Origin: Allostella vacuolata
GTDB lineage: Bacteria; Pseudomonadota; Alphaproteobacteria; ATCC43930; Allostellaceae
Reading direction: 5' to 3'
Assembly (NCBI GenBank): GCA_006739055.1
Contig: AP019702.1
Span: 620,501 to 684,500, forward strand
DNA: 64,000 nt
Position 1 is the first letter of the stretch; every line of letters begins with the position of its first letter. The notes under the pieces are model-generated. The model had not been told where the DNA came from and made no database searches. It saw only the letters and a list, made by a program, of their open reading frames with translations. A program made the position numbers and the translations under genes. This document shows positions 6,369-40,834 of this stretch, piece after piece.

Positions 6369-7355
6369 ATGATTGCGTTTGTAATCCGGCGCCTTCTTCA
6401 ATCGCTGATCGTGATGCTGGTGGTGGCGTTCGTCGCCTTCAGCATGTTCAATTTCCTCGGCGACCCGATCAACAACATGGTCGGGCAGGATGCAACCGAG
6501 CAGGAGCGGGAAAACCTGCGGCGCGTGCTGGGCCTCGACCAGCCCTTCTACATCCAGTTCCTGGTCTATCTGGGCAACGCCATCCAGGGGAACTTCGGCA
6601 CCTCCTACCGGCTCGGCATGCCAGTGGTGAACGCACTGGCCGATCGCCTCCCCGCCACGCTGGAGCTGGTGTTCTGCGCCGCGGGCCTGGCCCTGCTGGT
6701 CGGCGTGCCGCTCGGCGTCTATACCGGCCTGCACCGCGACCGCTGGCTCAGCAAGGTGTTCCTCACCCTATCGCTGATCGGCATCTCGCTGCCGACCTTC
6801 CTGATCGGCATCCTGCTGATCCTGTTCTTCGCGGTCTATCTCGGCTGGCTGCCGTCCTTCGGGCGCGGCGACGTGGTCGACCTCGGGATCTGGACGACCG
6901 GCTTCCTGACCCTGTCGGGCATCAAGGCGCTGATCCTGCCGTCGATCACCCTGGCGCTGTTCCAGCTCACCCTGGTCATGCGGCTGGTCCGCGCGGAGAT
7001 GCTGGAGGTGCTGCGCACCGACTACATCAAGTTCGCGCGTGCCCGCGGCCTGTCCAACCGGGCGGTGCATTTCGGCCATGCGCTCGGCAACACGCTGGTG
7101 CCCGTCATCACCATCACCGGCCTGCAGATCGGCTCGCTGATCGCGTTTGCGATCGTCACCGAGACGGTCTTCCAGTGGCCGGGCATGGGCCTGTTGTTCC
7201 TGCAGGCGGTGCAGTTCGTCGACATCCCGGTGATGTCGTCCTACCTCGTGCTGATCGCGTTCTTCTTCGTCCTGATCAACCTGATCGTCGATCTGCTCTA
7301 CTATTTCGTCGACCCGCGTCTGCGCGCCGATCGCGCCGTCGCCGGCGGCCATTGA
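6369..7355 (+). CDS. ABC transporter permease, DppB type
   Basis: 328-residue inner-membrane permease of the dipeptide/oligopeptide importer family. It has an N-terminal membrane segment (IAFVIRRLLQSLIVMLVVAFVAFSMFNFLGD), a periplasmic stretch, then the binding-protein-dependent transport domain. The EAA-type loop that contacts the ATPase is DYIKFARARGLS...LVP. It ends with the family-typical DPRLR. It is followed after 17 bp by its partner permease and forms an operon through the two ATPases. Confidence 0.93.
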   Translation: MIAFVIRRLLQSLIVMLVVAFVAFSMFNFLGDPINNMVGQDATEQERENLRRVLGLDQPFYIQFLVYLGNAIQGNFGTSYRLGMPVVNALADRLPATLELVFCAAGLALLVGVPLGVYTGLHRDRWLSKVFLTLSLIGISLPTFLIGILLILFFAVYLGWLPSFGRGDVVDLGIWTTGFLTLSGIKALILPSITLALFQLTLVMRLVRAEMLEVLRTDYIKFARARGLSNRAVHFGHALGNTLVPVITITGLQIGSLIAFAIVTETVFQWPGMGLLFLQAVQFVDIPVMSSYLVLIAFFFVLINLIVDLLYYFVDPRLRADRAVAGGH

Positions 7356-25014: not shown

Positions 25015-25640
25015 GCGGGGAGCTGGACCGCCTGCTGGCCGAGATCCGCGCCTGCCGCCTGTGCGCGGCACACCTGCCGCTGGGGCCGCGGCCGGTGGTG
25101 CGCGGGCACGCCACGGCGCGCATCCTGCTCGCCAGCCAGGCGCCGGGGACCAAGGTGCATGCGTCGGGCCTGTCGTTCGACGACGCCAGCGGCGATCGCC
25201 TGCGCGACTGGCTGGGGGTCGACCGCCAGACCTTCTACGACGAGAGCCGGATCGCCATGGCGCCGATGGGCTTCTGCTATCCCGGCCGCCTGCCGCGGGG
25301 CGGCGATGCGCCGCCGCGGCCGGAATGCGCGCCCCTGTGGCAGCCGCGAGTGGTGGCCGCCTTTACCGCGGTCGAGCTGGTGCTGCTGGTCGGCGGCTGG
25401 GCGCAGTCCTGGCATCTCGGCCGGCGCGCGCGGCCGACGCTGACCGCCACCGTGGCCGCCTGGCGGGACTACCTGCCGCGCCACTTCCCGCTGCCGCACC
25501 CGAGCTGGCGCAACACCGGCTGGATTGCCCGCAACCCGTGGTTCGAGGCCGAGGCGCTGCCCGAACTGCGCCGCCGGGTCGGCCGCCTGCTGGCCGGGCT
25601 GCCGGCGGACGAAGACCGATCAGTCGACCAGGGCCGATAG
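25011..25640 (+). CDS. Uracil-DNA glycosylase family protein
   Basis: 209 residues of the UDG superfamily. Motif 1 is LLASQAPGTKVHASG (the A-P-G turn of the active site) and motif 2 is HPSWRNTGW. An N-terminal CRLC pair recalls families with a metal centre but only two Cys are obvious. Translationally coupled to the sirtuin gene. Whether it excises uracil is not shown by sequence; some members of this clade are uncharacterised. Its 3' end overlaps the converging hydrolase gene by 21 bp. Confidence 0.8.
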   Translation: MSGELDRLLAEIRACRLCAAHLPLGPRPVVRGHATARILLASQAPGTKVHASGLSFDDASGDRLRDWLGVDRQTFYDESRIAMAPMGFCYPGRLPRGGDAPPRPECAPLWQPRVVAAFTAVELVLLVGGWAQSWHLGRRARPTLTATVAAWRDYLPRHFPLPHPSWRNTGWIARNPWFEAEALPELRRRVGRLLAGLPADEDRSVDQGR

Positions 25641-26219
25641 GGGCGCCACGACGGCGAAGCGGTCGGCCAGCTCGGCCAGCGAGGCGCGCTGCAGCTGCGG
25701 GGGGTCGAGGTCGGGCCCGCCGGTCGGGTCGGGCAGGGCGCGGGTGGCGGTGGCGTCGGCGATGACCGTGGTGCGGTAGCCGAGGTCGAGGGCGGCGCGC
25801 GCCGTCGAGCTGACGCACATGTGGGTCATGAAGCCGGCGATGACCAGCTGGCTGCGGCCGGTCTGCTTCAGCATCGACTGCAGGTCGGTGCCGGCGAAGG
25901 CGTTGGGCAGGCCCTTGGTGATGACCGTCTCGCCCGGCTCCGGCCGGGCCGGGTCGGCGATCTGCCCGCCCGGGCCCTCGGGGTCGAACAGGCCGCCGAC
26001 CTTGCCCAGGTGGGCGACATGGATGATGGGGGCGCCGGCAGCCCGCGCCCGCTGCAGCAGCCGGCGGATGGCTTCCAGGGCCGGGGCGGCGCCCGGCAGC
26101 GGAAGCCGCCCGTCGACATATTCCCGCTGGGCGTCGATCACCACCACCGCGGACTGCGAGAGCGGTCCCGGGGTGGCGTCGGCACCGGCGAGCTGCAGGA
26201 GGGTGCGGGCTGCGGTCAT
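25620..26219 (-). CDS. Isochorismatase-like cysteine hydrolase
   Basis: 199 residues. The expected triad is visible: Asp in VVVIDAQREYVDG, Lys in VITKGLPNAF and Cys in FMTHMCVSSTARAA. Family members hydrolyse isochorismate, nicotinamide or other small amides; the substrate here is not evident. ATG at 26219 gives the usual length. Divergently transcribed from a LysR gene at 26336, which may control it. Confidence 0.85.
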   Translation of the reverse strand: MTAARTLLQLAGADATPGPLSQSAVVVIDAQREYVDGRLPLPGAAPALEAIRRLLQRARAAGAPIIHVAHLGKVGGLFDPEGPGGQIADPARPEPGETVITKGLPNAFAGTDLQSMLKQTGRSQLVIAGFMTHMCVSSTARAALDLGYRTTVIADATATRALPDPTGGPDLDPPQLQRASLAELADRFAVVAPLSALVD

Positions 26220-26335
26220 TGGTGAAGCTTCTCCCTGTAGGCCCGGGAGAATAGGCCTGCATCCGTGCCGGGGAAGCCGCGACTTTCGACCTGCCTCCTG
26301 CAAGAATGCCGGCAGGCGGCTGGCAGGTGCAGCGG

Positions 26336-27181: not shown

Positions 27182-28561
<1,380 letters not shown>

Positions 28562-28611: not shown

Positions 28612-29460
28612 GTGCCGACCCTCGACATCCTTCTGCTCCGCAGCTTCGTCGCCGTGTCGCGCACCGGATCGATCAGCGCCGCCGCGCTCCAGGTCGGCCG
28701 CACCCAGTCGGCGGTCAGCATGCAGATGCAGCGGCTGGAAACGGTCGTCGGGCAGCCGATCCTGCATCGCACCGGCACCGGGGTCGAACTGACCGCCGCG
28801 GGCGACCGGTTGCTGTCCCATGCGGAGCGGATCCTGGGGGCCCATGACGAGGCGCTGGCGAGCGTCGCGACCGCGGGCCTGCATGGCGCGATCAGCTTCG
28901 GCTGCCCGGAGGACTACCTGACCGCCTTCTTCCCGGACATCCTGAAGGGCTTCGGCGCCCGGCACGGCGACGTGGAGATCGAGGTCGTATGCGCGCCGAC
29001 GGTGGAGCTGCGGGCCCTCCTGCAGCGCCGCCGGATCGATCTGGCGCTCGTCTCGCTGCCGGGGGAGGGTGGTCCCGGTGCCGTCATCCGTCCGGAATCC
29101 TTCGTCTGGGTCGGCAACGAGCCCCGCCCGGAGATCCTCGACGCACCGATCCTGCCGCTGGCCCTGTCGGCGCCCGGCACGCTCGACCACTACGCCGCCT
29201 GTGATGCGATGGAGGGGGCGGCGCGTGCCTACCGCATCGCCTTCGCCAGCAATTCGCTGGCAGGGCTGCTCGCCGTGACGCGCTCGGGCCGGGCGATCAG
29301 CGTCGTCACGCGGTCGGCCGTGCCGGGCGACCTCCATGTGCTGAACGCGCTGCTGCCGCCGCTGCCCGACATCGGGATCAGCCTCACCTACGCCGCCGCC
29401 CGGCCGCCGGCCATCGTGCGGGCCTTCGGCGAGTTCGTGAAGGCGCGGCTGGCGCCCTAG
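28612..29460 (+). CDS. LysR-family regulator (DgdR-like)
   Basis: 282 residues, starting at GTG 28612 with AAGGA about 11 bp upstream. N-terminal helix-turn-helix is LLRSFVAVSRTGSISAAALQVGRTQSAVSMQMQRLE; the effector domain ends RPPAIVRAFGEFVKARLAP. It is divergent from dgdA with a 110-bp shared control region, the arrangement known for DgdR, which represses dgdA unless its amino acid substrate is present. Identity as DgdR rests mainly on this context. Confidence 0.82.
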   Translation: MPTLDILLLRSFVAVSRTGSISAAALQVGRTQSAVSMQMQRLETVVGQPILHRTGTGVELTAAGDRLLSHAERILGAHDEALASVATAGLHGAISFGCPEDYLTAFFPDILKGFGARHGDVEIEVVCAPTVELRALLQRRRIDLALVSLPGEGGPGAVIRPESFVWVGNEPRPEILDAPILPLALSAPGTLDHYAACDAMEGAARAYRIAFASNSLAGLLAVTRSGRAISVVTRSAVPGDLHVLNALLPPLPDIGISLTYAAARPPAIVRAFGEFVKARLAP

Positions 29461-30866
29461 TCCCGCCAGCCCTCGGCCACCGGGGCGGCCGCCACCCCCA
29501 TCCGCTCCAGGGCGGCTGCCACCCGCAGGACCGTCGCTTCTTCCCACGGGCGACCGATCAGCTGCACGGCGATCGGCATGCCGTCGCGCGCGATCGGGGC
29601 GGCGACCACGGGCAGCCCGATGAAGGAGATCGGCTGCGTCAGGACGCCCAGGTTGGCGCGCACGGGTACGATGGCGCCGGCCAGCTCCATGGTCTGCTGG
29701 TCGATCGCGGGCGCGGTGCACGGCGTGGCGGCGGCGATCAGCACGTCGACGTCGTGCATCGCCTCGGCCACCTGGCGGCGGAAGACGCCGCGGAAGCGCT
29801 GCGCCGCGCTGACCCAGGCGGCAGGGATGAGGGCGCCCGCCGTCAGGCGGTCCCGCGTCTCCGGGTCGAAGTCGTCGGCGCGGCGGCGCAGCCGGTCGAG
29901 ATGCAGGGCCCCGCCCTCGGCCGCGGTGATGACGTAGGCGGCGGCCCGCGCCCGCCCGGCCTCGGCCAGCGTCACCCGCCGGATGGCACCCAGCGCCGCG
30001 GCGGCGGCATCGACGGCGGCCCGCGCGTCGGGCCCGGCGAACTCGACGAAGTGGCCGTCCAGCACCGCGATGCGCAGCCCGGCGATGTCGCCCAGGGGGG
30101 CGGCCGGCTCCGGCGGCCGGCCGGCCAGGTGCGGGTCCTCGGCATCCGGCCCCTGCATCGCGTCGTAGGCCAGCGCCAGGTCGGTGGCGGACCGGGCAAG
30201 GGGCCCCAGATGGTCGAGTGCGGCCACGAACGGGAACGACCCGCGCCGCGTCAGCCGGCCGAAGGTCGGCTTCAGGCCGAACAGGCCGCACAGCGATGCC
30301 GGCACCCGGATCGAGCCGTTGGTGTCGCTGCCGAGTGCCAGCGGCACCAGCCCGCCGGCGACCGCGCCGCCGCTGCCGCCCGACGAGCCGCCGGTCATCC
30401 GCGCCGGGTCGTGCGGGTTGCGGGTCGGCCCGTAGTGGGCGTTGCGGCCGGTGAAGTCGTAGGCGTACTCGCCCATGCCGAGCGCGCCGACCAGGACGGC
30501 GCCGGCCGCCTCCAGCCGGGCGACCAGCGGCGCGTCGGCGCCGGCCGGGGGCGAATCCGCCTCGATCTTCGACCCCGCCAGCGTCGCCAGCCCGGCCACG
30601 TCGAACAGGTTCTTGACCGCGAACGGCACCCCGGCGAGCGGTCCCGGGTCGCCGCCGGCGGCGACCATGCGGTCGATGGCGGCGGCCTGCCGCCGGGCGC
30701 GCTCGGCGGTGACGGCGGTGAAGGCGTTCAGCACCGGCTGCGCCTCGGCGATGCGGGCCAGCGCCGCCTCGACCACGGCGGACGCGGTGACCGCGCCGGC
30801 GCGCACCGCGGCTGCGATCTCCCCGCAGCCGGCCCGGGCGCCGGTGGCCGGATGGACCGCGCTCAT
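29457..30866 (-). CDS. atzE: AtzE-type amidase (1-carboxybiuret hydrolase family)
   Basis: 469-residue amidase-signature enzyme. Triad residues are Lys85 (FAVKNLFD), Ser161-162 (GGSSGGSGG) and the nucleophile Ser185 (SDTNGSIRVPAS). The stretches MGEYAYDFTGRNAHYGP and GGLVPLALGSDTNGSI match AtzE proteins, which remove ammonia from 1-carboxybiuret in cyanurate breakdown. Upstream and overlapping (ATGA) is a small AtzG-like gene, the partner AtzE needs for assembly. Downstream of the converging dgdR-like gene by a 4-bp overlap. Confidence 0.82.
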   Translation of the reverse strand: MSAVHPATGARAGCGEIAAAVRAGAVTASAVVEAALARIAEAQPVLNAFTAVTAERARRQAAAIDRMVAAGGDPGPLAGVPFAVKNLFDVAGLATLAGSKIEADSPPAGADAPLVARLEAAGAVLVGALGMGEYAYDFTGRNAHYGPTRNPHDPARMTGGSSGGSGGAVAGGLVPLALGSDTNGSIRVPASLCGLFGLKPTFGRLTRRGSFPFVAALDHLGPLARSATDLALAYDAMQGPDAEDPHLAGRPPEPAAPLGDIAGLRIAVLDGHFVEFAGPDARAAVDAAAAALGAIRRVTLAEAGRARAAAYVITAAEGGALHLDRLRRRADDFDPETRDRLTAGALIPAAWVSAAQRFRGVFRRQVAEAMHDVDVLIAAATPCTAPAIDQQTMELAGAIVPVRANLGVLTQPISFIGLPVVAAPIARDGMPIAVQLIGRPWEEATVLRVAAALERMGVAAAPVAEGWRD

Positions 30867-31066
30867 GGCCGGAACACCGGCGCCGGCTCGTCGGCATCGG
30901 TCAGCGGGTGCTGGCCGACCACCGCCGCCAGCCGCTCTGCCAGGGCCAGGTGGTCGAGCACCGCCGGCCAGCGGGCATCCGCGATCGGCAGGTCGAGCAG
31001 GGCGGCCGCCGCCCGGCCGTAGCGGGCGAGCGGGGGCTGGTCGGCGGGTTCGCTAGATGGAAGCAA
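30863..31066 (-). CDS. atzG: AtzG-like small subunit (DUF4089)
   Basis: 67 residues: LARYGRAAAALLDLPIADARWPAVLDHLALAERLAAVVGQHPL then EPAPVFRP, the characteristic DUF4089 ending. In Pseudomonas the AtzG protein forms a heterotetramer with AtzE and stabilises it. The start is a TTG at 31066-31064 with GGAGGG seven bases upstream. The stop overlaps the atzE-type start. A 101-bp palindromic repeat begins 20 bp upstream of the start codon. Confidence 0.8.
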   Translation of the reverse strand: MLPSSEPADQPPLARYGRAAAALLDLPIADARWPAVLDHLALAERLAAVVGQHPLTDADEPAPVFRP

Positions 31067-31085
31067 GGTACGGCCCTCCGGTCGT

Positions 31086-31186
31086 AGCGTCCCTCGACCG
31101 GGCTCGGGATGAGGGACATTTCTCGTGGCACATAGGCTTGTGGAGGAAAGAAACGCGCCTCACCCCGAGCCTGGTCGAGGGGCGCT
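31086..31186. repeat. 101-bp palindromic repeat element, copy 1
   Basis: Outer 29-nt arms (31086-31114 and 31158-31186) are reverse complements with three mismatches. The 43-nt centre contains an imperfect palindrome beginning GCACATAGGCTTGTG. It aligns without gaps to copy 2 once the insertion sequence and one target duplicate are removed from it. It resembles the REP/MITE class of intergenic palindromes and sits between atzG and atzF. No target duplication is evident. Confidence 0.85.
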
Positions 31187-31245: not shown

Positions 31246-32997
31246 TCATCCCGGAATCTCCTCGGTGGGGGTCACGGATCGGCGCCAGGCGCGCCAGCCG
31301 CCGAAGCGGCTGATGTCGGGGGCGTCGCATTCGCCGCCGGCGGCGCAGACGAAGCCGCGCACCTCCCGGCCGTCGGCGAGTTCCACCAGGCCCAGCGCCA
31401 GGGGCGCCCGGACCTCTTCCAGCAGGCCGGGCAGGGCCGGCTCCGGCACCCGCCAGACCTCGCCCTCGATCGCGGTGCCGCCGCTCGCCACCCGCACCAG
31501 CCCGGGCCGCGGCAGGGTGCCGTCCAGCAGCACCATGCGGTAATGGGCGGCCGTGCGGATCGCGCGCACCGGGACGGCGCCGAGCGCAGCCAGCTGGGCG
31601 CTGCGCGGCTCGCCGCTCAGATGGGCGCCGAACACGGCAATCTCGACCCCGCCCGGCGGCGCGGCGGCGGGGCGCAGGCGGTCGGCCGGCAGGCGGCGGC
31701 CGGTGGCGCCCAGCGGCAGGTCGGCCGCGACGTGCAGCGCCCCGCCCAGTGCTGCCAGCGCCAGGTCGCTGCCGGCCGGCCCGATCAGGGTGACGCCGAC
31801 CGGCAGGCGATTGCGGTGGAAGCCGGTCGGGATGGCCAGCGCGGCCAGGTCGAGCAGGTTGACGAAGTTGGTCCAGGTGCCGAGCGTGGAGTTGCGGGCG
31901 ATCGGGTCGGCCTGCACCTCGGCCACCGACCAGTGGCGCGGCGCGGTCGGCACCACCAGGGCATCGTAGCGGTCCCAGGTCGGCAGCGTCGCCGCGCGCA
32001 GGGCCGCCAGGCGATAGAGGCCGGTGAAGGCGTCGACCGCGGAGCGGTCGCGGCCGCTGCGGACGATGGCGCGGACCGCGGGGTCGCAGTCGTCCCAGTG
32101 CGCCTCGATGAACGGACCGACGGCGGCGGTGCGCTCCGCCACCCAGGGTCCGTCATAGAGCAGGCCAGCGGTCGCCAGGAACGGGGCGTGGTCGATCTCC
32201 TCGATCGTGGCGCCGACGGCGCGCAGCAGGGCCAGGCTGCGGTCCCACCATTCCGGGCCGCCCGCGTCGCCGAACCAGGGCAGGGCGGCCGGGTGCGGCA
32301 CCGCCACCCGCCAGCCGCCGCCCCGCGGCGGGCGCATGGCGAGCGCCCGCGAGAAAGGGTCCGCCGCCGTGGGCCCGGCGGCGATCGCCAGGGCCGCCAG
32401 CGCGTCTGGGACCGTCAGCGCGAAGATCGAGACGCAGTCGAGGCTGCGGCAGGCGGGGACCACGCCGTCGGCCGGGATCAGGCCGCGGCTCGGCTTCAGG
32501 CCGACGATGTTGTTCAGCATCGCCGGGACCCGCCCCGAGCCGGCCGTGTCGGTGCCGAGCGCCACCGGAACCAGGCCGCGCGCGACGGCGACCGCCGACC
32601 CTGAGGAGGACCCGCCCGGGATGCAGGCCGGGTCGAACGGGTTCTCGGGCACGCCGTAGGGGCTGCGGACGCCGACCAGCCCGGTCGCGAACTGGTCGAG
32701 GTTGGTCTTGCCCGCGACCGAGAAGCCGGCGGCCTCCAGCCGCGCCACTGCCGTCGCCGAACGCTCCGGCCGGTAGGCGTAGGCCGGACAGCCGGCGGTG
32801 GTCACCCAGCCGGCCGCGTCGATGTTGTCCTTCACGGCCAGCGGTATGCCGTCGGCCGGACCTTCCGAGCGGGCGATGAAGATCGCCGGGTCGGCCGCCG
32901 CCAGCGCCGCGGCATGGGCGGCGCGCATCGAAGGCGTGGCCGTCCGCCAATCCTCCAGGGTGATGGGGGCGTCGATCATCATGGGCTCTGGCGTCAT
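31246..32997 (-). CDS. atzF: Allophanate hydrolase (AtzF type)
   Basis: 583 residues. The N-terminal amidase domain has Lys56 (AVKDNIDAAG), Ser131 (PGGSSSGSAV) and nucleophile Ser154 (GTDTAGSGRVPA). From about residue 460 a second domain (VEIAVFGAHLSGEPRSAQL...TAIEGEVWRVP) matches the C-terminal allophanate hydrolase domain that finishes conversion of allophanate to ammonia and CO2. It lies upstream of the AtzG/AtzE pair, separated by the repeat element, and diverges from the GntR gene. No urea carboxylase, biuret hydrolase or cyanurate hydrolase is present in the window. Confidence 0.88.
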   Translation of the reverse strand: MTPEPMMIDAPITLEDWRTATPSMRAAHAAALAAADPAIFIARSEGPADGIPLAVKDNIDAAGWVTTAGCPAYAYRPERSATAVARLEAAGFSVAGKTNLDQFATGLVGVRSPYGVPENPFDPACIPGGSSSGSAVAVARGLVPVALGTDTAGSGRVPAMLNNIVGLKPSRGLIPADGVVPACRSLDCVSIFALTVPDALAALAIAAGPTAADPFSRALAMRPPRGGGWRVAVPHPAALPWFGDAGGPEWWDRSLALLRAVGATIEEIDHAPFLATAGLLYDGPWVAERTAAVGPFIEAHWDDCDPAVRAIVRSGRDRSAVDAFTGLYRLAALRAATLPTWDRYDALVVPTAPRHWSVAEVQADPIARNSTLGTWTNFVNLLDLAALAIPTGFHRNRLPVGVTLIGPAGSDLALAALGGALHVAADLPLGATGRRLPADRLRPAAAPPGGVEIAVFGAHLSGEPRSAQLAALGAVPVRAIRTAAHYRMVLLDGTLPRPGLVRVASGGTAIEGEVWRVPEPALPGLLEEVRAPLALGLVELADGREVRGFVCAAGGECDAPDISRFGGWRAWRRSVTPTEEIPG

Positions 32998-33104
32998 GGG
33001 CTCTCGTCCGTCATGGGGAGGGGCGTCAGCACAGGTCGTGCCAGCCGGCCGGGCGGTGGGGCTGGGCCTTGCCGGGGGGCGCGAGTTCGGCCAAAGAGGG
33101 GTCG

Positions 33105-33803
33105 ATGGACGCCGCCCCCCGCAAGATCGCCCTTCCCGGACCGCCGCGAACCCGCGCGGACCGGCTGCGCGAGGACCTGGCCGAGGAGATCCTGTCCGGG
33201 CGGATCGGGCCGGGCGTCCGGCTCGACGAGCAGGGGCTGGCCGACCGTTTCGGCGTATCGCGGACCCCGGTGCGCGAGGCGCTCCGCCAGCTCGCCGCCA
33301 CCGGCCTGGTGGAGGCGCGCCCGCACAAGGGCGTGGTGGTGACGACGCCTTCGCCGGTGGCCCTGGCGGAATCCTTCGAGGTGATGGCCGAGCTGGAAGC
33401 CGCCTGCGCGGCCCTGGCCGCGCGGCGCATGCCGGCCGGCCTGCGGCGCACGCTGGCCCGCGTCCACGGCCGGCTCCGCACCCTGGCCGACGCCGGCGAC
33501 CCCGAGGACTATGCCGCCCTCAATCTCGAATTCCACGACACCATCTGGCAGGGCAGCGGCAATGCCACGCTGGCGGCGATGACCGCCGACGTGCGCCGCC
33601 GGGTCGGGCCGTTCCGCCGCCTGCAGTTCCGGCTCTCCGGCCGTCTCCAGAAGTCGTGGGAAGAGCATGATGCCGTGGTCCGCGCCATCCTGGCCGGCGA
33701 TCCCGAAACCGCGCGGGCGGCGATGCGCGGTCATGTCGGCCTGGTCGGCGACGCGTCGGCCGATCTGGTTCGCCCGGGGGCATTTCTGGCGGCGGCGAAA
33801 TGA
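33105..33803 (+). CDS. GntR-family regulator (FCD type)
   Basis: 232 residues. Winged helix: RADRLREDLAEEILSGRIGPGVRLDEQGLADRFGVSRTPVREALRQLAATGLVEARPHKGVVV. The FCD effector domain contains FHDTIW and HDAVVRAILAGD with metal-ligand His. ATG at 33105 is preceded by agagggg. Placed between the allophanate hydrolase gene (divergent) and the importer operon (downstream), it likely controls both; a dyad right after its stop is a candidate operator. Confidence 0.88.
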   Translation: MDAAPRKIALPGPPRTRADRLREDLAEEILSGRIGPGVRLDEQGLADRFGVSRTPVREALRQLAATGLVEARPHKGVVVTTPSPVALAESFEVMAELEAACAALAARRMPAGLRRTLARVHGRLRTLADAGDPEDYAALNLEFHDTIWQGSGNATLAAMTADVRRRVGPFRRLQFRLSGRLQKSWEEHDAVVRAILAGDPETARAAMRGHVGLVGDASADLVRPGAFLAAAK

Positions 33804-33809
33804 TCATGC

Positions 33810-33823
33810 ATGCAAAATTGCAT
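33810..33823. promoter_or_regulatory. Candidate GntR operator dyad
   Basis: ATGCAAAATTGCAT has perfect 6-bp arms with a 2-bp spacer and continues into ACAA, resembling FCD-type GntR operators. It lies six bases after the gntR stop, in the AT-rich start of the region that controls the importer operon. Confidence 0.5.
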
Positions 33824-33961
33824 ACAAGATAGCCAGAGTTTGTTGATTTGAAATAGGTATTTAGCGGGAAGGCGCCCGCGATTCGGGCAGCTGGTGGGCG
33901 AGGTGCGGGCAGAAGCCCGCGGCGGGGCGCCGAAAATTCCCGGAATCCGGCATTTTTTCGC

Positions 33962-33976
33962 TGGCACGATGCTTGC
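33962..33976 (+). promoter_or_regulatory. Sigma-54 promoter of the importer operon
   Basis: TGGCACGATGCTTGC matches the -24/-12 consensus TGGCACG-N4-TTGC exactly. Transcription would start near 33988, giving a leader of about 30 nt before the ATG at 34017. Sigma-54 promoters require an enhancer-binding activator such as NtrC, which fits an operon beside allophanate and carboxybiuret hydrolases (nitrogen limitation). Confidence 0.72.
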
Positions 33977-33984
33977 GCTTCTTC

Positions 33985-34006
33985 CCGGCGAACGGGCTTT
34001 CGCCGG
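33985..34006 (+). other. Leader hairpin next to the ribosome-binding site
   Basis: CCGGCGAA and TTCGCCGG form a perfect 8-bp stem with a 6-nt loop. The last GG belongs to the GGAGGGGG Shine-Dalgarno run (34005-34012). The hairpin would lie at the extreme 5' end of a transcript from the sigma-54 promoter. Confidence 0.5.
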
Positions 34007-34016
34007 AGGGGGTGCC

Positions 34017-35621
34017 ATGAAGCGTCGCGAGTTCCTGAAGTCCTCGGCCGCGGTCGCGGCCGGTGTCGCGATCGGCGGCGTGCCCTGGAACGGCGCGCTC
34101 GGGCAGGCGCGCAAGGACACGCTGCTCGCCATCTCCGAGAATGGCCCCAACAGCCTGGACATCCACGGCGTCGGCACCAACCGGCCCGGCTACGAGGCGT
34201 CGTGGAACAGCTACGACCGGCTCGTCACCTTCGGGGTCAAGAAGGACGGGCAGGGCAACGACCATTACGACTACACAAAGATCGAGCCGGAACTGGCCGA
34301 GGACTGGACCGTGACCGACGGCTCGGCCACCTTCCGGCTGAAGCGCGGCGCCAAATTCCATGACGGCACGCCCGTCACCGCCGCCGACGTCAAATGGTCG
34401 TTCGACCGGGCGGTGACCGTGGGCGGCTTCCCGACCTTCCAGATGAAGGCGGGCTCGCTCGAGAAGCCGGAACAGTTCGTGGCGGTCGACGACCGCACCT
34501 TCCGCATCGACTTCCTGCGCCGCGACAAGCTGACCATGCCGGACCTGGGCGTGCCGGTGCCGGTGATCATCAATTCCGGGCTGGCCCGCAAGCATGCCAC
34601 CGCCGCCGACCCCTGGGCGATGGACTGGCTGCGCACCAACGAGGCCGGCTCCGGCGCCTACAGGGTGGAGCGGTTCCAGCCCGGCACCGAGCTGGTCTTC
34701 CAGCGCAACGACGACTGGGTCGGCGGGCCGAAGCCGAAGATCCAGCGGGTGGTCTGGCGGGTGGTGCCCCAGGCCGGCAACCGCCGCGCCCTGCTGGAGC
34801 GCGGCGACGCCGACGTCTCGTTCGACCTGCCGAGCAAGGACTTCACCGAGCTGGCGGCGTCCAAGAAGCTGACCATCGTCGGCACCCCGGTCGAGAACGC
34901 GCTGCAGTACATCGCCTTCAACGTCACCCGGCCGCCCTTCGACGACGTCAAGGTGCGCCAGGCGGTGGCCTGGGCGCTGCCCTACCAGGCGATCATGGAT
35001 TCGGTCATGTTCGGCCGCGCCCTGCCGATGTTCGGCGCCGCCAAGCCGGTCGCAGACGCCTCGTGGCCGCAGGCCCACGGCTATGCGACCGACCTGGGGA
35101 AGGCCAAGGCCCTGATGGCCGCCTCGCCCTTCCCGAACGGGTTCGAGACGACCCTGTCCTTCGACCTCGGCCTGGCCGGGGTCAACGAGCCGATCTGCGT
35201 GCTGGTGCAGGAGAGCCTGGCGCGCATCGGCATCAAGCTGACGATCAACAAGATCCCCGGCGCCAACTGGCGCAACGAGCTCCTGAAGAAGCAGCTGCCG
35301 ATGCTGACCAACACCTTCGGCGGCTGGCTCAACTTCCCGGACTATTTCTTCTTCTGGGCCTATCACGGCCAGAACGCGGTGTTCAACACGATGGCCTACC
35401 AGAACCCGCGGATGGACAAGGCGATCGACCTCGCCCGCTTCGCGCCGGACGCCGCGACCTACGAGGCGAGCGTGAAGGAGTTCGTCGGCCTCGCCTTCGA
35501 GGAGGTGCCGCGCATCCCGCTGTTCCAGCCCTACCTCAACGTGGCGATGCAGAAGAACGTCACCGGCTACCGCTACTGGTTCCATCGCCAGCTCGACTAC
35601 CGCCAGCTGGCAAAGGCCTAG
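34017..35621 (+). CDS. ABC transporter substrate-binding protein, family 5, Tat-exported
   Basis: 534 residues. N terminus MKRREFLKSSAAVAAGVAIGG is a twin-arginine signal (RREFLK). The SBP_bac_5 domain contains KRGAKFHDGTPVTAADVKWSFDRA near residue 110. ATG at 34017 has GGAGGGGG upstream; the frame is open earlier but not conserved. First gene of a five-gene importer operon behind a sigma-54 promoter. Given the flanking amidases, a urea- or biuret-like or N-rich heterocycle ligand is possible, but this is inference. Confidence 0.92.
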   Translation: MKRREFLKSSAAVAAGVAIGGVPWNGALGQARKDTLLAISENGPNSLDIHGVGTNRPGYEASWNSYDRLVTFGVKKDGQGNDHYDYTKIEPELAEDWTVTDGSATFRLKRGAKFHDGTPVTAADVKWSFDRAVTVGGFPTFQMKAGSLEKPEQFVAVDDRTFRIDFLRRDKLTMPDLGVPVPVIINSGLARKHATAADPWAMDWLRTNEAGSGAYRVERFQPGTELVFQRNDDWVGGPKPKIQRVVWRVVPQAGNRRALLERGDADVSFDLPSKDFTELAASKKLTIVGTPVENALQYIAFNVTRPPFDDVKVRQAVAWALPYQAIMDSVMFGRALPMFGAAKPVADASWPQAHGYATDLGKAKALMAASPFPNGFETTLSFDLGLAGVNEPICVLVQESLARIGIKLTINKIPGANWRNELLKKQLPMLTNTFGGWLNFPDYFFFWAYHGQNAVFNTMAYQNPRMDKAIDLARFAPDAATYEASVKEFVGLAFEEVPRIPLFQPYLNVAMQKNVTGYRYWFHRQLDYRQLAKA

Positions 35622-35648: not shown

Positions 35649-36662
35649 ATGCTGGCCATGATCGGTCGACGGCTGCTGGCGGCGCTGCCGTCGATCGCCG
35701 GGGTGATCGTGGTCACCTTCCTGCTGACCCGCCTCTTGCCGGGCGACCCGGCCGCCTATTTCGCCGGGCCGGCCGCCACCCCGCAGGCGATCGAGGAAGT
35801 GCGGGCGCGCCTCGGCCTCGACCGCTCGGTGCCGGCCCAGTTCGTGGGCTATCTGGGCGACCTGGCGCGCGGCGACTTCGGCCTGTCGCTGACGACCGGG
35901 CTGCCGGTCCTGCGCGAGCTGATCAACCGCCTGCCGGCGTCGCTGGAGCTGACGCTCGCCGGACTGCTGTTCGCCGTCGCCGTCGCCGTGCCGCTCGGCA
36001 TCCTGGCGGCGGTCCGGGCGGGGTCCTGGATCGACCATGCGACGCGCATCGTCGCCACCGCCGGGGTCAGCCTGCCGACCTTCTTCACCGGCCTGCTGCT
36101 GGTCCATGTCTTCTATTCGGTGCTGCAGGTCGCGCCGGCGCCGATGGGCCGGCTCGACGTCTTCGCCTCGCCGCCGCCGCACATCACCGGGCTCTACATC
36201 GTCGATGCCCTGCTGACCGGCGACGCCGCGACCGCCTGGGCGGCGCTCGCCCAGCTCGCCCTGCCGGCGCTGACGCTCGGCATCTTCGCGCTCGCCCCGC
36301 TCGCCCGGATGACGCGGGCGGCGATGCTGTCGGCGCTCGGCAGCGACTTCGTGCGCGCCGCCCGCGCCTCGGGCCTGAGCCGCAGCCGGATCGTCTGGGT
36401 CTATGCCTTTCGCAACGCGCTGCTGCCGGTGCTGACCACGCTCGGCATGGTGTTCTCGTTCCTGCTCGGTGCCAACGTGCTGGTGGAGAAGGTCTTCGCC
36501 TGGCCCGGCATCGGCTCCTACGCGATCGAGGCGCTGATCGTCTCCGACTATGCGCCGGTGCAGGGTTTCGTGCTGACCATGGCGCTGCTCTACGTCCTCC
36601 TCAACCTCGTGATCGACATCCTCTACGGCATCGTCGATCCGCGCGTGAAGCTGGAGAGCTGA
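35649..36662 (+). CDS. ABC transporter permease, DppB type
   Basis: 337-residue permease: N-terminal helix IGRRLLAALPSIAGVIVVTFLLTRLLPGDPA, six predicted membrane segments, EAA loop DFVRAARASGLSRSRI...LLPVL, C-terminal VDPRVKLES. Its stop overlaps the next start (TGATG at 36660-36664). Confidence 0.93.
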   Translation: MLAMIGRRLLAALPSIAGVIVVTFLLTRLLPGDPAAYFAGPAATPQAIEEVRARLGLDRSVPAQFVGYLGDLARGDFGLSLTTGLPVLRELINRLPASLELTLAGLLFAVAVAVPLGILAAVRAGSWIDHATRIVATAGVSLPTFFTGLLLVHVFYSVLQVAPAPMGRLDVFASPPPHITGLYIVDALLTGDAATAWAALAQLALPALTLGIFALAPLARMTRAAMLSALGSDFVRAARASGLSRSRIVWVYAFRNALLPVLTTLGMVFSFLLGANVLVEKVFAWPGIGSYAIEALIVSDYAPVQGFVLTMALLYVLLNLVIDILYGIVDPRVKLES

Positions 36663-37516
36663 TGGCCGCCGCCGGCGAGTATGCCCGCCACCTGCGCCAT
36701 GTGGTGACCGAGAACCCGGTCACCGGCGCCGCCTTCGGGCTGTTCGTGCTGCTGGTCCTGACCGCCGTGCTGGGGCCGGTGCTGGCACCCTACGACCCCC
36801 TGCAGAGCAACGCCGCCCATACGCTGGAGGCGCCGTCGGCGCGCCACTGGTTCGGCACCGACCAGCTCGGCCGCGACGTCTTCAGCCGGGTGGTGGTGGC
36901 GACCCGGCTCGACATGACGATCGCCTTCGCCAGCGTCGCCCTGGTCTTCGTCACCGGCACCCTGACCGGGGTCGCGGCCGGCCATTTCGGCGGCTGGGTC
37001 GACCGGCTGGTCGGCCGCGCGTCCGACACCATCATGGCCTTCCCGCTGTTCGTGCTGGCGATGGGCATCGTGGCCGCACTCGGCAACACGGTCACCAACA
37101 TCGTGCTGGCGACGGCGGTGGTGAACTTCCCGCTCTATGTCCGGGTAGCGCGGGCGGAGGCGAACGTGCGCCGCGACGCCGGATTCGTCGAGGCCGCCCG
37201 GATCAGCGGCAACGGCGAGGCCCGGCTGGTGCTGTTCCACATCCTGCCCAACACCCTGCCGATCATGATGGTGCAGGTGTCGCTGACGCTGGGCTACGCC
37301 ATCCTGAACGCGGCCGGCCTGTCCTTCATCGGCCTCGGCGTGCGGCCACCGACGCCGGAATGGGGGATCATGGTCGCCGACGGCGCCAACTACATCCAGT
37401 CCGGCGAGTGGTGGATCGCGCTGTTCCCGGGCCTCGCCCTGATGCTGGCGGTGTTCTGCTTCAACCTGCTGGGCGACGGGCTGCGCGACCTGATCGACCC
37501 GAGGCGCCGGACATGA
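36662..37516 (+). CDS. ABC transporter permease, DppC type
   Basis: 284-residue permease. Family blocks: FGTDQLGRDVFSRVVVATRLDMTIA, RASDTIMAFPLFVLAM, EAA loop GFVEAARISGNGEARL...LPNTLPI, and SFIGLGVRPPTPEWG. Overlaps the ATPase gene downstream by 4 bp (ATGA). Confidence 0.93.
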   Translation: MAAAGEYARHLRHVVTENPVTGAAFGLFVLLVLTAVLGPVLAPYDPLQSNAAHTLEAPSARHWFGTDQLGRDVFSRVVVATRLDMTIAFASVALVFVTGTLTGVAAGHFGGWVDRLVGRASDTIMAFPLFVLAMGIVAALGNTVTNIVLATAVVNFPLYVRVARAEANVRRDAGFVEAARISGNGEARLVLFHILPNTLPIMMVQVSLTLGYAILNAAGLSFIGLGVRPPTPEWGIMVADGANYIQSGEWWIALFPGLALMLAVFCFNLLGDGLRDLIDPRRRT

Positions 37517-38514
37517 CCCTGGATCCCAATCCACCGCTGCTGTCGGTCGAGGGCCTGTCGGTCGCCTTCCGCACCCGCGCCGGCGAGGTCAAGGCGCTGG
37601 AGCGGGTCGGCTTCGCGATCGGCCGCGGCGAGACGATCGCAATCGTCGGCGAGAGCGGGTCGGGCAAGTCGGTCACCGCCCAGGCGGTGATGGGCATCCT
37701 CGACCCGGCCGGCCGGGTGACCGAGGGCCGCATCGGCTTCGGCGGCATGGACCTGCTCCAGGCGAGCCCGCGCGAGCTGGCCGACATGCGCGGCCGCGAA
37801 CTGGCGATGATCTTCCAGAACCCGCGCGGCGCCCTCAACCCGATCCGCACCGTGGGCGACCAGATCGCCGACGTGCTGGCCCGGCACGAGCACCTGAAGG
37901 GCCCCGCCGCCCGCGCCCGGGCCATGGAGATGCTGGCGCTGGTCAAGATCACCGACCCCAGGCGGCGGCTCGACGCCTATCCGTTCGAACTGTCGGGCGG
38001 CATGTGCCAGCGGGTGATGATCGCGCTGGCGCTCGCCTGCCGCCCGGCGCTGCTGATCGCCGACGAGCCGACCACCGGCCTCGACGTCACCACCCAGGCG
38101 GCGATCATGGACCTGATCGACGAGCTGGGCCGCTCGCGCGGCATGGCCACGGTCCTGATCACCCACGACCTCGGCCTGGCGGCGGAGCATTGCCGACGCA
38201 TCGTCGTCATGCATGCCGGCCATGTGGTCGAGGACGCGCCGGCCGAGGCGCTGTTCGCCGCCCCGCGCCACCCCTACACGGCCAGGCTGCTGGCGGCGAC
38301 GCCGCGCCCCGGCCGCCGGCTCGACGACCTGGTGGCCATTCCGGGCGGGCTGCCGGACCTGCGCCGCGCCGACCTCGGCGGCTGCCGCTTCCTCGACCGC
38401 TGCGAGCGCGCGGCCGACCCGTGCCGGGCCGGCGTCGAGCCGGTCGAGAGCGCGGGGCCGGGCGGCCCGCGCCGCGTCCTGTGCGCCCGGCCGCTGGAGG
38501 AGGTGGCAGCATGA
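37513..38514 (+). CDS. ABC transporter ATP-binding protein, DppD type
   Basis: 333 residues. Walker A GESGSGKS begins at residue 46; signature LSGGMCQRV has Cys where Arg is usual (GGMRQRV in the other DppD-type protein of this window); Walker B LLIADEPTTGLD; switch THDLGL. C-terminal Cys-rich importer tail CRFLDRCERAADPC. Overlaps the next gene by ATGA. Confidence 0.93.
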   Translation: MTLDPNPPLLSVEGLSVAFRTRAGEVKALERVGFAIGRGETIAIVGESGSGKSVTAQAVMGILDPAGRVTEGRIGFGGMDLLQASPRELADMRGRELAMIFQNPRGALNPIRTVGDQIADVLARHEHLKGPAARARAMEMLALVKITDPRRRLDAYPFELSGGMCQRVMIALALACRPALLIADEPTTGLDVTTQAAIMDLIDELGRSRGMATVLITHDLGLAAEHCRRIVVMHAGHVVEDAPAEALFAAPRHPYTARLLAATPRPGRRLDDLVAIPGGLPDLRRADLGGCRFLDRCERAADPCRAGVEPVESAGPGGPRRVLCARPLEEVAA

Positions 38515-39506
38515 CCGCGTTGCTCGAGGTGGCGGGCCTCACCCGCCGCTTCCCGGTCGGCCTGCCGGGCCCGATCGACCGCCTGCGCGGCCGCAAGCCC
38601 GGCATGCTGCACGCGGTCGACGCCGTCGACCTCGCCATCGGCGAGGGCGAGGTGCTGGGGCTGGTGGGGGAGAGCGGCTGCGGCAAGTCCACGCTCGCCC
38701 GCCTGGTCGCCCGCCTGATCGACCCGACCGAGGGCGGCATCCGCTTCGCGGGCGAGGACGTGGCCGCGATCCCGGCCCGCCGCTTCGCCCGGCACAAGCT
38801 GCGCGGCCAGATCCAGATGGTCTTCCAGGACCCGACGGAAAGCCTCAACCCGCGCTGGACCGCCTTCGACTGCATCGCCGACCCGATCCGCCGCCTCGAC
38901 CCGGTGCCGGGCGCCCGCCTCGACCAGCGGGTGCGCGAACTGGCCGACCTCGTCAGCCTGCCGGAGACGCTGCTGTTCCGCTTTCCCCACCAGCTGTCGG
39001 GCGGGCAGAAGGCGCGCGTCGGCATCGCCCGGGCGGTGGCGCTGCGTCCCCGGCTGCTGGTGCTGGACGAGCCGACCTCGGCGCTGGACGTCTCGGTCCA
39101 GGTGGTGGTGCTGAAGCTGCTGGCCGACCTGAAGCGGCGGCTCGGCATGAGCTACCTCTTCGTCACCCACGACCTGGAGGTGGTGCGGCTGGTCTGCGAC
39201 CGGGTCGCGGTCATGTATCTGGGCCGCATGGCCGAGGTCGGGACGGTGGACCAGGTCTTCGCCCGGCCGTCGCATCCCTATACCCGCGCGCTGCTGTCCT
39301 CGATCCCGACCGGGGTGCCGGGCCGGCCGCCGCAGCGCATCCTCCTGACCGGCGACCCGCGCAGCCCGGTCGACCCCGACCCCCGCGTTTGCCGCTTCCT
39401 CGGCCGCTGCCCGCAGAGCACCGAGCGCTGCGGGACCGAGATGCCCCAGCTCCGCCGCATCGCCGCCGGCCACGCGGCAGCCTGCCACTTCGCCGACGCG
39501 GCGTAA
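38511..39506 (+). CDS. ABC transporter ATP-binding protein, DppF type
   Basis: 331 residues. Walker A GESGCGKS begins at residue 53, LSGGQKARV signature, LVLDEPTSALD Walker B, THDLEV switch, and C-terminal CRFLGRCPQSTERC. Last gene of the importer operon; 25 bp after it begins the second copy of the palindromic repeat, carrying an insertion sequence. Confidence 0.93.
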   Translation: MTALLEVAGLTRRFPVGLPGPIDRLRGRKPGMLHAVDAVDLAIGEGEVLGLVGESGCGKSTLARLVARLIDPTEGGIRFAGEDVAAIPARRFARHKLRGQIQMVFQDPTESLNPRWTAFDCIADPIRRLDPVPGARLDQRVRELADLVSLPETLLFRFPHQLSGGQKARVGIARAVALRPRLLVLDEPTSALDVSVQVVVLKLLADLKRRLGMSYLFVTHDLEVVRLVCDRVAVMYLGRMAEVGTVDQVFARPSHPYTRALLSSIPTGVPGRPPQRILLTGDPRSPVDPDPRVCRFLGRCPQSTERCGTEMPQLRRIAAGHAAACHFADAA

Positions 39507-39564
39507 GGAGTGGGCGCTGCCCATGGTTCGAAGCGTCCCTCGACCGGGCTCGGGATGAGGGGCT

Positions 39565-39573
39565 TCTCCCTCT
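39565..39573 (+). repeat. Target-site duplication, left
   Basis: TCTCCCTCT immediately before the left end of the insertion sequence, repeated exactly at 40711-40719 after its right end. Nine base pairs is the duplication length typical of the IS903 group. Confidence 0.9.
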
Positions 39574-40710
39574 GGCGTTGTTGCATGGAGGCATCTGGAA
39601 ACATGTGCTTCCCGCGGCGGCTGGAAAGTGATTCACGCTTTGGATGGCTCCCCGCTCCCGCAAGGTTCCCGCCCCGAAGGTCGTCGCGCCAGCCCAGAAG
39701 CGCGGCCGGCCAGCCCCTCGCTACCGTCGGCCGCCCGCCCCGAAGCCCCGCTACCGCATCACGAACTGGCGCGAATATAACGATGCTCTGGTGCGGCGCG
39801 GGTCGATCACGCTGTGGATCGATGAAGCGATGGTTGCCGGCTGGCGGGCATCCGGTGGTCGGGGATGGCGCTACAGCGACCAGGCGATCGTGTGTGCGCT
39901 GTCCTTGCGCGCGGTGTTCGGGCTCACGTTGCGCCAGACCCAGGGGTTCCTGCACGACCTGACGCGGCTGCTCGGGCTGGCGGTCGAAGTCCCGCACTAC
40001 TCCACCTTCTCGCGCCGGGCGGCCACGCTCGCGGTACCGAAGCCCGCACGGCCGGTCGACGGGCCGTTGCATCTCGCGGTCGACGCCACCGGGCTCAAGG
40101 TGCATGGCGAGGGGGAGTGGAAGGTCCGCGTCCATGGAGCAGGAAAGCGCCGGGTCTGGCGCAAACTGCACCTGGCCGTGGACACCCGGACCGGCATGCT
40201 GCACGCCCATGCCCTGACAGCGAGCGAGGCTTCCGACGGCGGCCGGCTCGAGGATCTGCTCGCCGCCGTCGGCGCGCCGATCGAGGCAGTCTGCGCCGAC
40301 AAGGCCTATGATAGCTTCGACTGCCATGACGTCATCCGGGCGCACGGAGCACGGCCGGTGATCCCGCCGCGCAAGGGTGCTGCGATCCGACCACCGCAGA
40401 ACCGACCCGACGCGCCTCCCACCCGGCGCGAGGCGGTCGCCCGCATGGCCGAGATCGGGCGCAAGGCCTGGAAGATCGAGACCGGCTATCATCGCCGCTC
40501 CCTCGCCGAGACCGCGATGCTCCGCTACAAGGTCCTGATCGGCCCCAGCCTCCGCTCGCGCAGCTTCGACCGACAAAAGGTAGAGGCCGCCGTCGCCGTC
40601 CGCTGCATCAACCGCTTCACCGAACTCGGCATGCCCCACAGCGTCCCGATCACCTGAGAAAACCGGGAAAAGGGAGCTCCAGGACCACCCGAGCTCCATG
40701 CAACAACGCC
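39574..40710 (+). mobile_element. Insertion sequence, IS5 family (IS903 group), intact
   Basis: A 1137-bp element with 17-bp perfect terminal inverted repeats (GGCGTTGTTGCATGGAG at 39574-39590 and its complement at 40694-40710), a 9-bp target duplication and one full-length transposase gene. The ends resemble the GGCTTTGTTG start of IS903 elements. It lies inside the second copy of the 101-bp palindromic repeat. All parts needed for movement look intact, so it may be recent. Confidence 0.92.
39644..40657 (+). CDS. IS5-family transposase (IS903 group)
   Basis: 337-residue DDE transposase. N-terminal block YRITNWREYNDALVRRGSITLWIDE is characteristic of the IS903 group. The first catalytic Asp lies in AVDATGLKVHG, the second in ADKAYDS, and the third motif Y-x2-R-x3-E-x6-K is complete in YHRRSLAETAMLRYK. 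No frameshift or stop interrupts it. Confidence 0.95.
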   Translation: MAPRSRKVPAPKVVAPAQKRGRPAPRYRRPPAPKPRYRITNWREYNDALVRRGSITLWIDEAMVAGWRASGGRGWRYSDQAIVCALSLRAVFGLTLRQTQGFLHDLTRLLGLAVEVPHYSTFSRRAATLAVPKPARPVDGPLHLAVDATGLKVHGEGEWKVRVHGAGKRRVWRKLHLAVDTRTGMLHAHALTASEASDGGRLEDLLAAVGAPIEAVCADKAYDSFDCHDVIRAHGARPVIPPRKGAAIRPPQNRPDAPPTRREAVARMAEIGRKAWKIETGYHRRSLAETAMLRYKVLIGPSLRSRSFDRQKVEAAVAVRCINRFTELGMPHSVPIT

Positions 40711-40719: not shown

Positions 40720-40834
40720 GCACAAGCGCTTGTGCCAGAAAGAAAATTTCCTCATCCCGAGCCCGGTCGAGGGACGCTGTGACCGTCGTGCCGGCCGGCT
40801 GCCTCGGCCGATCGCGTTGGTCCTTCGGGCGCGA

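Follow-up and report, generated by a model that had tools for sequence, protein, structure and literature searches.

The 64,000-nucleotide stretch of DNA considered here (the window), from Stella, a star-shaped bacterium, carries a match to the -24/-12 consensus of σ54 promoters ahead of a five-gene ABC importer, beside genes for allophanate-type hydrolases. The question raised by this locus is whether the match is a genuine promoter and, if so, which activator and which additional regulator would control the importer through it.

The importer and its neighbors

The five genes downstream of the match were initially annotated as an importer, and Pfam and NCBIfam domain matches confirm that assignment; a family 5 substrate-binding protein (SBP), two permeases, and two ATPases lie in one gene run, as in importers of the Dpp/Opp type. 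The initial annotation also placed the importer beside allophanate genes, which is equally borne out, as the AtzF-type hydrolase (which also carries the AH_C domain) and the AtzE-family amidohydrolase both score above their family cut-offs. The importer arm is on the forward strand and the atzF-atzG-atzE arm on the reverse strand, with gntR between them.

29457..30866, reverse strand: atzE-family amidohydrolase (TIGR02715, 654 bits over a cut-off of 426)
30863..31066, reverse strand: atzG-like small subunit (PF13318), start codon uncertain
31246..32997, reverse strand: atzF-type allophanate hydrolase (TIGR02713, 683 bits over a cut-off of 511; AH_C domain)
33029..33043, reverse strand: degenerate -24/-12 element facing atzF, TGGCACGACCTGTGC, 31 bp before the atzF ATG
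33105..33803, forward strand: gntR, GntR-FCD regulator (PF00392, PF07729)
33806..33827, no strand: predicted GntR-FCD operator, ATGCATGCAA at 33806-33815 (1 mismatch) and TTGCATACAA at 33818-33827
33819..33835, no strand: candidate NtrC box TGCATACAAGATAGCCA, marginal, with a 9 bp overlap with the operator core
33873..33889, no strand: second candidate NtrC box CGCCCGCGATTCGGGCA, weak (p 0.63)
33962..33976, forward strand: predicted σ54 -24/-12 promoter element of the importer, TGGCACGATGCTTGC, conserved in orthologs and identical in three Stella genomes
34017..35621, forward strand: substrate-binding protein, SBP family 5 (PF00496), GsiB/DppA-like, below every cut-off
35649..36662, forward strand: DppB-like permease, below every cut-off
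36662..37516, forward strand: DppC-like permease (PF00528, PF12911)
37513..38514, forward strand: DppD-like ATPase (PF00005, PF08352)
38511..39506, forward strand: DppF-like ATPase (PF00005, PF08352)

The longest reading frame for gntR opens at 33069, and the ATG at 33105 is the preferred start. None of the five importer proteins reaches an equivalog cut-off; the DppC-like permease scores best in NCBIfam against the D,D-dipeptide permease model, though short of the cut-off. The best solved-structure matches of the binding protein are headed by AgaA (6hlx) and also include YliB and haem- and dipeptide-binding proteins. Its closest named relative is from Stella sp. ATCC 35155 (89%). The window genome itself belongs to the genus Stella, and two of the three other Stella genomes carry the binding-protein gene, the third having none at the threshold used. 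AtzE and/or AtzF homologues lie near the importer at 56 of the 80 related loci (39 of the 51 full-length loci); neither AtzD nor AtzH was found among the window proteins scanned.

Also near the atz genes, on the reverse strand, are a class-III aminotransferase (27182-28540) and an isochorismatase-family hydrolase (25620-26303) whose best model, biuret amidohydrolase, is far below cut-off; both are likewise nearby in Stella sp. ATCC 35155 (L041). A repeat with the core GCGTCCCTCGACCGGGCTCGGGATGAGG occurs at 31071-31123, between atzG and atzF, and at 39532-39576 and 40734-40778; the last two copies are inverted and flank an IS5-family transposase gene (39644-40657, NF033579) just after the importer.

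The -24/-12 element and its orthologs

The element at 33962-33976, TGGCACGATGCTTGC, agrees with TGGCACG-N4-TTGC at 11 of 11 fixed bases (0 mismatches), with ten bases between the GG at -24 and the GC at -12. The ATG at 34017 lies 40 bp past it and has a good ribosome-binding stretch; on both the match and the distance the initial annotation was accurate. In the longer σ54 consensus W follows TTGC, and the base directly after 33976 is G. Transcription of the importer is predicted from the element to start at about 33988.

The motif shows no genome-wide excess, because, with at most one mismatch allowed, the 5.83-Mb genome contains 75 matches to it and 107 to its reversed form, used as a control; four matches are exact. 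The position of the element is non-random: when the first 30 matches of each set were placed relative to genes by a crude gene caller, which overlooked the atzF-side and L020 sites, 10 of those from the 75 were intergenic and 15-150 bp before a gene start, compared with one of those from the 107 controls. These 10 include three of the four exact matches; the fourth (L010) was called intragenic.

Other -24/-12-like sites in the same genome (L008, L011, L033, and L020) stand 37-49 bp before genes that appear by eye to encode ABC importers, which suggests a Stella σ54 importer regulon wider than this locus. A further site (L027) is flanked by L004, which encodes an enhancer-binding protein, and by a gene that by eye is molybdenum-dehydrogenase-like.

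Conservation was assessed in 82 orthologous loci, comprising 80 related loci from a scan of named genomes and two more Stella loci; L040, which has the same genome and place as L041, was left out of the counts. The loci are mutually related, and the element score weights the fit to the -24/-12 consensus in an ad hoc manner, with 7.8 taken as an element and 7.35 as a weaker element. An element is present at 41 of the 82 loci, nine more reach 7.35, and 32 are without. In 39 of the 41, the distance from the start of the element to the estimated start of the gene is 47-90 bp, and in the other two it is 92 and 99 bp. With the window locus (L038) excluded, 40 of 81 binding-protein gene starts reach 7.8, compared with 0.33% of 12,141 random windows; control gene starts in the same loci seldom do so (atzF 1/38, atzE 0/42, gntR 0/45, permease 1/79, ATPase 0/69). 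Within the orthologous elements the inner bases vary and both halves hold, and across three Stella genomes the element is invariant and its flanks differ. A second draw of genomes replicated this pattern: among 10 new loci with SBP identity of at least 57%, nine reach 7.35 and eight reach 7.8, and three of 16 lower-identity loci reach 7.35 (L191, too short, and L184, L185, and L210, repeats of earlier loci, were omitted).

Judged by this conservation, the element is clearly not a product of chance. Four exact matches in 5.8 Mb and a reversed form that is no rarer (107 to 75) could be cited in favor of accident, but the element is kept across alphaproteobacteria and was replicated in new loci, which makes accident very unlikely for the family and gives it a negligible probability at this site. 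It is also highly improbable that TGGCAC...TTGC is part of an operator and no promoter at all; the GntR operator does abut TGGCAC in Xanthobacter (L078), but the two halves hold a fixed spacing with a free N4, the distances to the gene start span a narrow range, and similar elements precede glnB and glnK. The initial proposal of a σ54 promoter on the importer is thus supported by this footprint in orthologs and by an rpoN gene, over cut-off, in the genome.

TTGA stands in place of TTGC at -12 in the importer promoters of L054, L076, L078, L087, L098, L104, and L114, and in glnK-type promoters of relatives (L173, L174, L178, L180, and L182). The TTGA form is retained across several genera; because it also precedes several glnK-type genes, it is read as a variant -12, and possibly represents a variant class of σ54 promoter.

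A GntR-FCD operator and candidate NtrC boxes

HutC is a GntR regulator of the UTRA type; the window GntR has an FCD domain instead of a UTRA domain. In a de novo motif search of 46 non-redundant upstream regions from element-bearing loci, ATTGCATACAAT ranks first, and TTGYATRCAA with at most one mismatch occurs in 58 of 81 upstream regions, compared with 2.3% of random windows. In Stella, the predicted operator at 33806-33827 is part of a block conserved among three Stella genomes. Leaving aside the window, an operator is found within 300 bp at 45 of 45 loci with gntR (at least 45% identity) and 12 of 35 without; for full-length loci the counts are 33 of 33 and 4 of 18. Loci short of upstream sequence were dropped from the TTGYATRCAA, motif-search, and operator-gntR counts. 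One exception, L193, has a 50% identical gntR nearby and no operator; its binding protein is 53% identical, and it has no element at 7.35. Because a GntR-FCD operator is present in the region and tracks the presence of gntR, control is probably exerted by more than nitrogen alone.

The occurrence of the σ54 element differs with gene arrangement. At the 7.8 threshold it is present in 13 of 13 loci where a divergent atzF adjoins the binding-protein gene, in all three Stella loci (gntR upstream on the same strand), in 0 of 7 loci where atzF precedes that gene in the same orientation, and in 2 of 22 loci with a divergent, adjacent gntR; the remaining 37 loci include 23 that reach 7.8, nine weak elements, and five with none. 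Divergent-gntR loci therefore stand at 2/22 against 39/60 for all others. By these counts the link between divergent gntR and the absence of a σ54 element is strong, but on the binding-protein tree gntR position changed just five times and the element 10 times, and with five independent pairs a paired sign test does not reach significance (p 0.25). In the 20 of 22 divergent-gntR relatives without the element, control by a σ70 promoter and a GntR repressor is probable, and where gntR is present an operator has been retained no more than 300 bp from the gene. The window importer might be controlled in the same way, its -24/-12 match being a relic, but among three Stella genomes the flanks differ and the element does not, and a simple scan of 33780-34030 gave no σ70-like site; such control is improbable here.

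With a σ54 promoter as the preferred reading, the activator can be considered. The second de novo motif in the importer upstream regions is a symmetric TGCCTA-N5-TAGGCA, and the same box emerges from upstream regions of glnB/glnK (P-II) genes. The enteric NtrC box, TGCACC-N5-GGTGCA, shows no clear excess over shuffles in the importer upstream regions, and the P-II-derived box was used instead. Its matrix, tGCctAaanttTagGCa, was trained only on 29 glnB/glnK upstream regions of 16 relatives (30 loci were taken from 44 matches; 29 passed the start filter and L155 failed). A first, hand-built dyad matrix was circular with respect to its training sites and had a null of mostly coding DNA, and supports no claim. 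In three-fold cross-validation the box is recovered in 27 of 29 held-out P-II upstream regions at p<=0.05 and in 17 of 29 at p<=0.01; 18 of 29 have at most 3 of 12 mismatches to the box consensus, compared with 6.9% of shuffles. Because it is placed at P-II genes, we infer that this box is the site of NtrC; the R. capsulatus NtrC site, CGCC-N9-GGC, resembles it.

The P-II-trained box was sought in a non-redundant set of 46 of the 49 element loci and 28 of the 32 others; seven Reyranella-type loci, whose upstream regions run into atzF, were counted apart from the other 39 element loci. At p<=0.05 the box is present in 28 of these 39 with the operator masked and in 31 with the operator held fixed, and in two of the seven Reyranella-type loci. 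It is also present in 13 of 28 loci without a σ54 element, and the proposal that it is specific to element-bearing loci was rejected on that count. Cross-validation with importer-trained matrices recovers the box in 29 of 39 held-out element loci, and in 7, 15, and 17 of 28 no-element loci by fold.

The NtrC sites that the initial annotation proposed to seek upstream of 33960 came out as one marginal and one non-significant candidate. The box at 33819-33835 has p 0.067 (0.047 in a separate shuffle), and its counterparts in the other two Stella genomes have p 0.007 and 0.013. GCC-N9-GGCA at 33873-33889 was rejected as an NtrC box (p 0.63); with 49 copies of this pattern in the window, it is non-significant. 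Ahead of Stella glnB stand a one-mismatch element, TGGCACGGCTCCTGCT, 93 bp from the ATG, and a clear box whose score none of 300 shuffles reached; no box was detected upstream of Stella glnK (p 0.48) or at 12 other -24/-12-like Stella sites (all p >0.1). NtrC action is thus well supported for the ortholog family and only plausible for Stella; the initial assignment of the importer to the nitrogen-limitation regulon finds support in most of the relatives examined and a marginal box in Stella.

The genome has four strong enhancer-binding-protein genes. The NtrC equivalog (TIGR01818, 721 bits) contains GAFTGA, which matters because NtrC proteins of Caulobacter and Rhodobacterales are described as lacking this motif (PMC10274813). 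Of the three other proteins, two carry GAFTGA, and the third, an NtrX equivalog (724 bits over 600), does not. That another enhancer-binding protein drives the σ54 promoter in place of NtrC is a minor yet appreciable possibility, to which these three genes and the marginal Stella box lend some weight; against it, the glnB/glnK-trained box lies upstream in 31 of 39 relatives, and no window protein scanned is an enhancer-binding protein.

At the degenerate atzF-side element, TGGCACG-N4-GTGC is kept in three Stella genomes with a differing N4. No NtrC box accompanies it (p 0.20), and no such element was found before atzF outside Stella, the one atzF start of 38 that reaches 7.8 being that of Stella L041. 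Nitrogen control common to the importer and atzF arms is likely. The tie between uptake and urea-type hydrolases claimed in the initial annotation finds support in gene linkage and the degenerate element. In L041, a 15-bp tandem array of 5.8 copies (6946-7032), the unit of which carries TGGCACG, reaches the atzF-side -24/-12 element, giving repeated -24 halves in the promoter.

Operator and box also show a preferred spacing. From the operator center to the center of the best non-overlapping box the distance is 24.5-26.5 bp in 22 of 33 element loci that have an operator, compared with 3.6% of shuffles, with boxes taken whether or not individually significant, the range 23.5-26.5 picked post hoc, and related loci (Xanthobacteraceae above all) counted more than once. 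The register of about 25 bp occurs on either side of the operator. It is found in 0 of 18 loci without an element, where eight stand at 28.5 and six at 49.5 bp; loci with a divergent, adjacent gntR have mostly lost the σ54 element and show a register of 28.5 or 49.5 bp instead. Among new loci with an operator, three of five are at 24.5 (L188, L196, and L212; not L186 or L189), repeats L184 and L185 being omitted. The register is absent from the three Stella loci, window included. A composite switch may tentatively be proposed, in which a GntR-FCD operator and an NtrC box in fixed register of about 25 bp lie upstream of the element, Stella being a variant with the box atop the operator. If so, the register would mean that GntR touches or displaces NtrC, rather than blocking polymerase, and would provide a testable mechanism by which a σ54 activator could be gated by a local repressor. 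The spacing of about 25 bp is the one rule without explanation within an otherwise mostly expected kind of control.

Proposed control and known systems

On sequence evidence, 33962-33976 appears to be a real, conserved σ54 promoter, most likely NtrC-controlled with a GntR-FCD gate. The joint reading, of a σ54 promoter activated by NtrC under nitrogen limitation and an importer gated by GntR-FCD, is given a probability of about 0.78. From this promoter, transcription of the importer genes would begin near 33988. When nitrogen is limiting, NtrC in its phosphorylated form would bind about 100-150 bp upstream, loop to the σ54 polymerase, and open the promoter. The local GntR-FCD protein, sitting on the operator at 33806-33827, most likely acts as a repressor or as a competitor of NtrC as long as its ligand is missing; that ligand is probably the compound taken up by the importer or a product of its breakdown. 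With such a gate added to NtrC activation, the importer would be produced under nitrogen shortage with its substrate available; the divergent atzF-atzG-atzE operon has a weaker element of σ54 type. Probable nitrogen control of this uncharacterised importer points to nitrogen sources as the compounds among which to look for its substrate, and supplies a growth condition under which it can be tested.

No published account of σ54 control of this importer was found in the open-access literature, which is weak evidence of absence. The E. coli ddpXABCDF operon is not known to have a GntR gene or atzF/atzE neighbors; the window importer differs in having both, and its substrate is likely different. 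The two are alike as peptide-type ABC importers with an RpoN promoter, that of ddp being NtrC-activated: ddpXABCDF, a D-Ala-D-Ala importer operon, is RpoN/NtrC-dependent, and ddpX mRNA rises 104.5-fold under nitrogen depletion (PMC8743547). The match of the DppC-like permease to the D,D-dipeptide permease model, below cut-off, is a further likeness. For Rhizobiales, comparative genomics has led to the prediction that NtrC controls atzF; relative to that regulon as given in the available part of the report, the window adds the importer, the GntR operator, and Stella (PMC5343134). The initial annotation named no described case for this importer class; the ddp operon (PMC8743547) and the atzF prediction (PMC5343134) contradict it.

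Clusters of atzG-atzE-atzH with ABC transporters, some with allophanate hydrolase, have been proposed to serve nitrogenous compounds, and the window similarly links the same kind of hydrolases to an ABC importer (PMC6219798). It differs from these clusters in that the window scan gave no AtzD or AtzH. Regulation is not among the features of these clusters given in the available part of the report (PMC6219798).

The window regulator is of the FCD type, unlike the UTRA-type HutC of the Pseudomonas histidine pathway to which hutU belongs. The fixed 25-bp register of the relatives is not among the hutU features described in the available part of the report (PMC8871633). What the window region would share with the hutU promoter, on which HutC, NtrC, and CbrB act and where HutC and NtrC share sites, is the meeting of a local repressor and NtrC on one σ54-type promoter region (PMC8871633).
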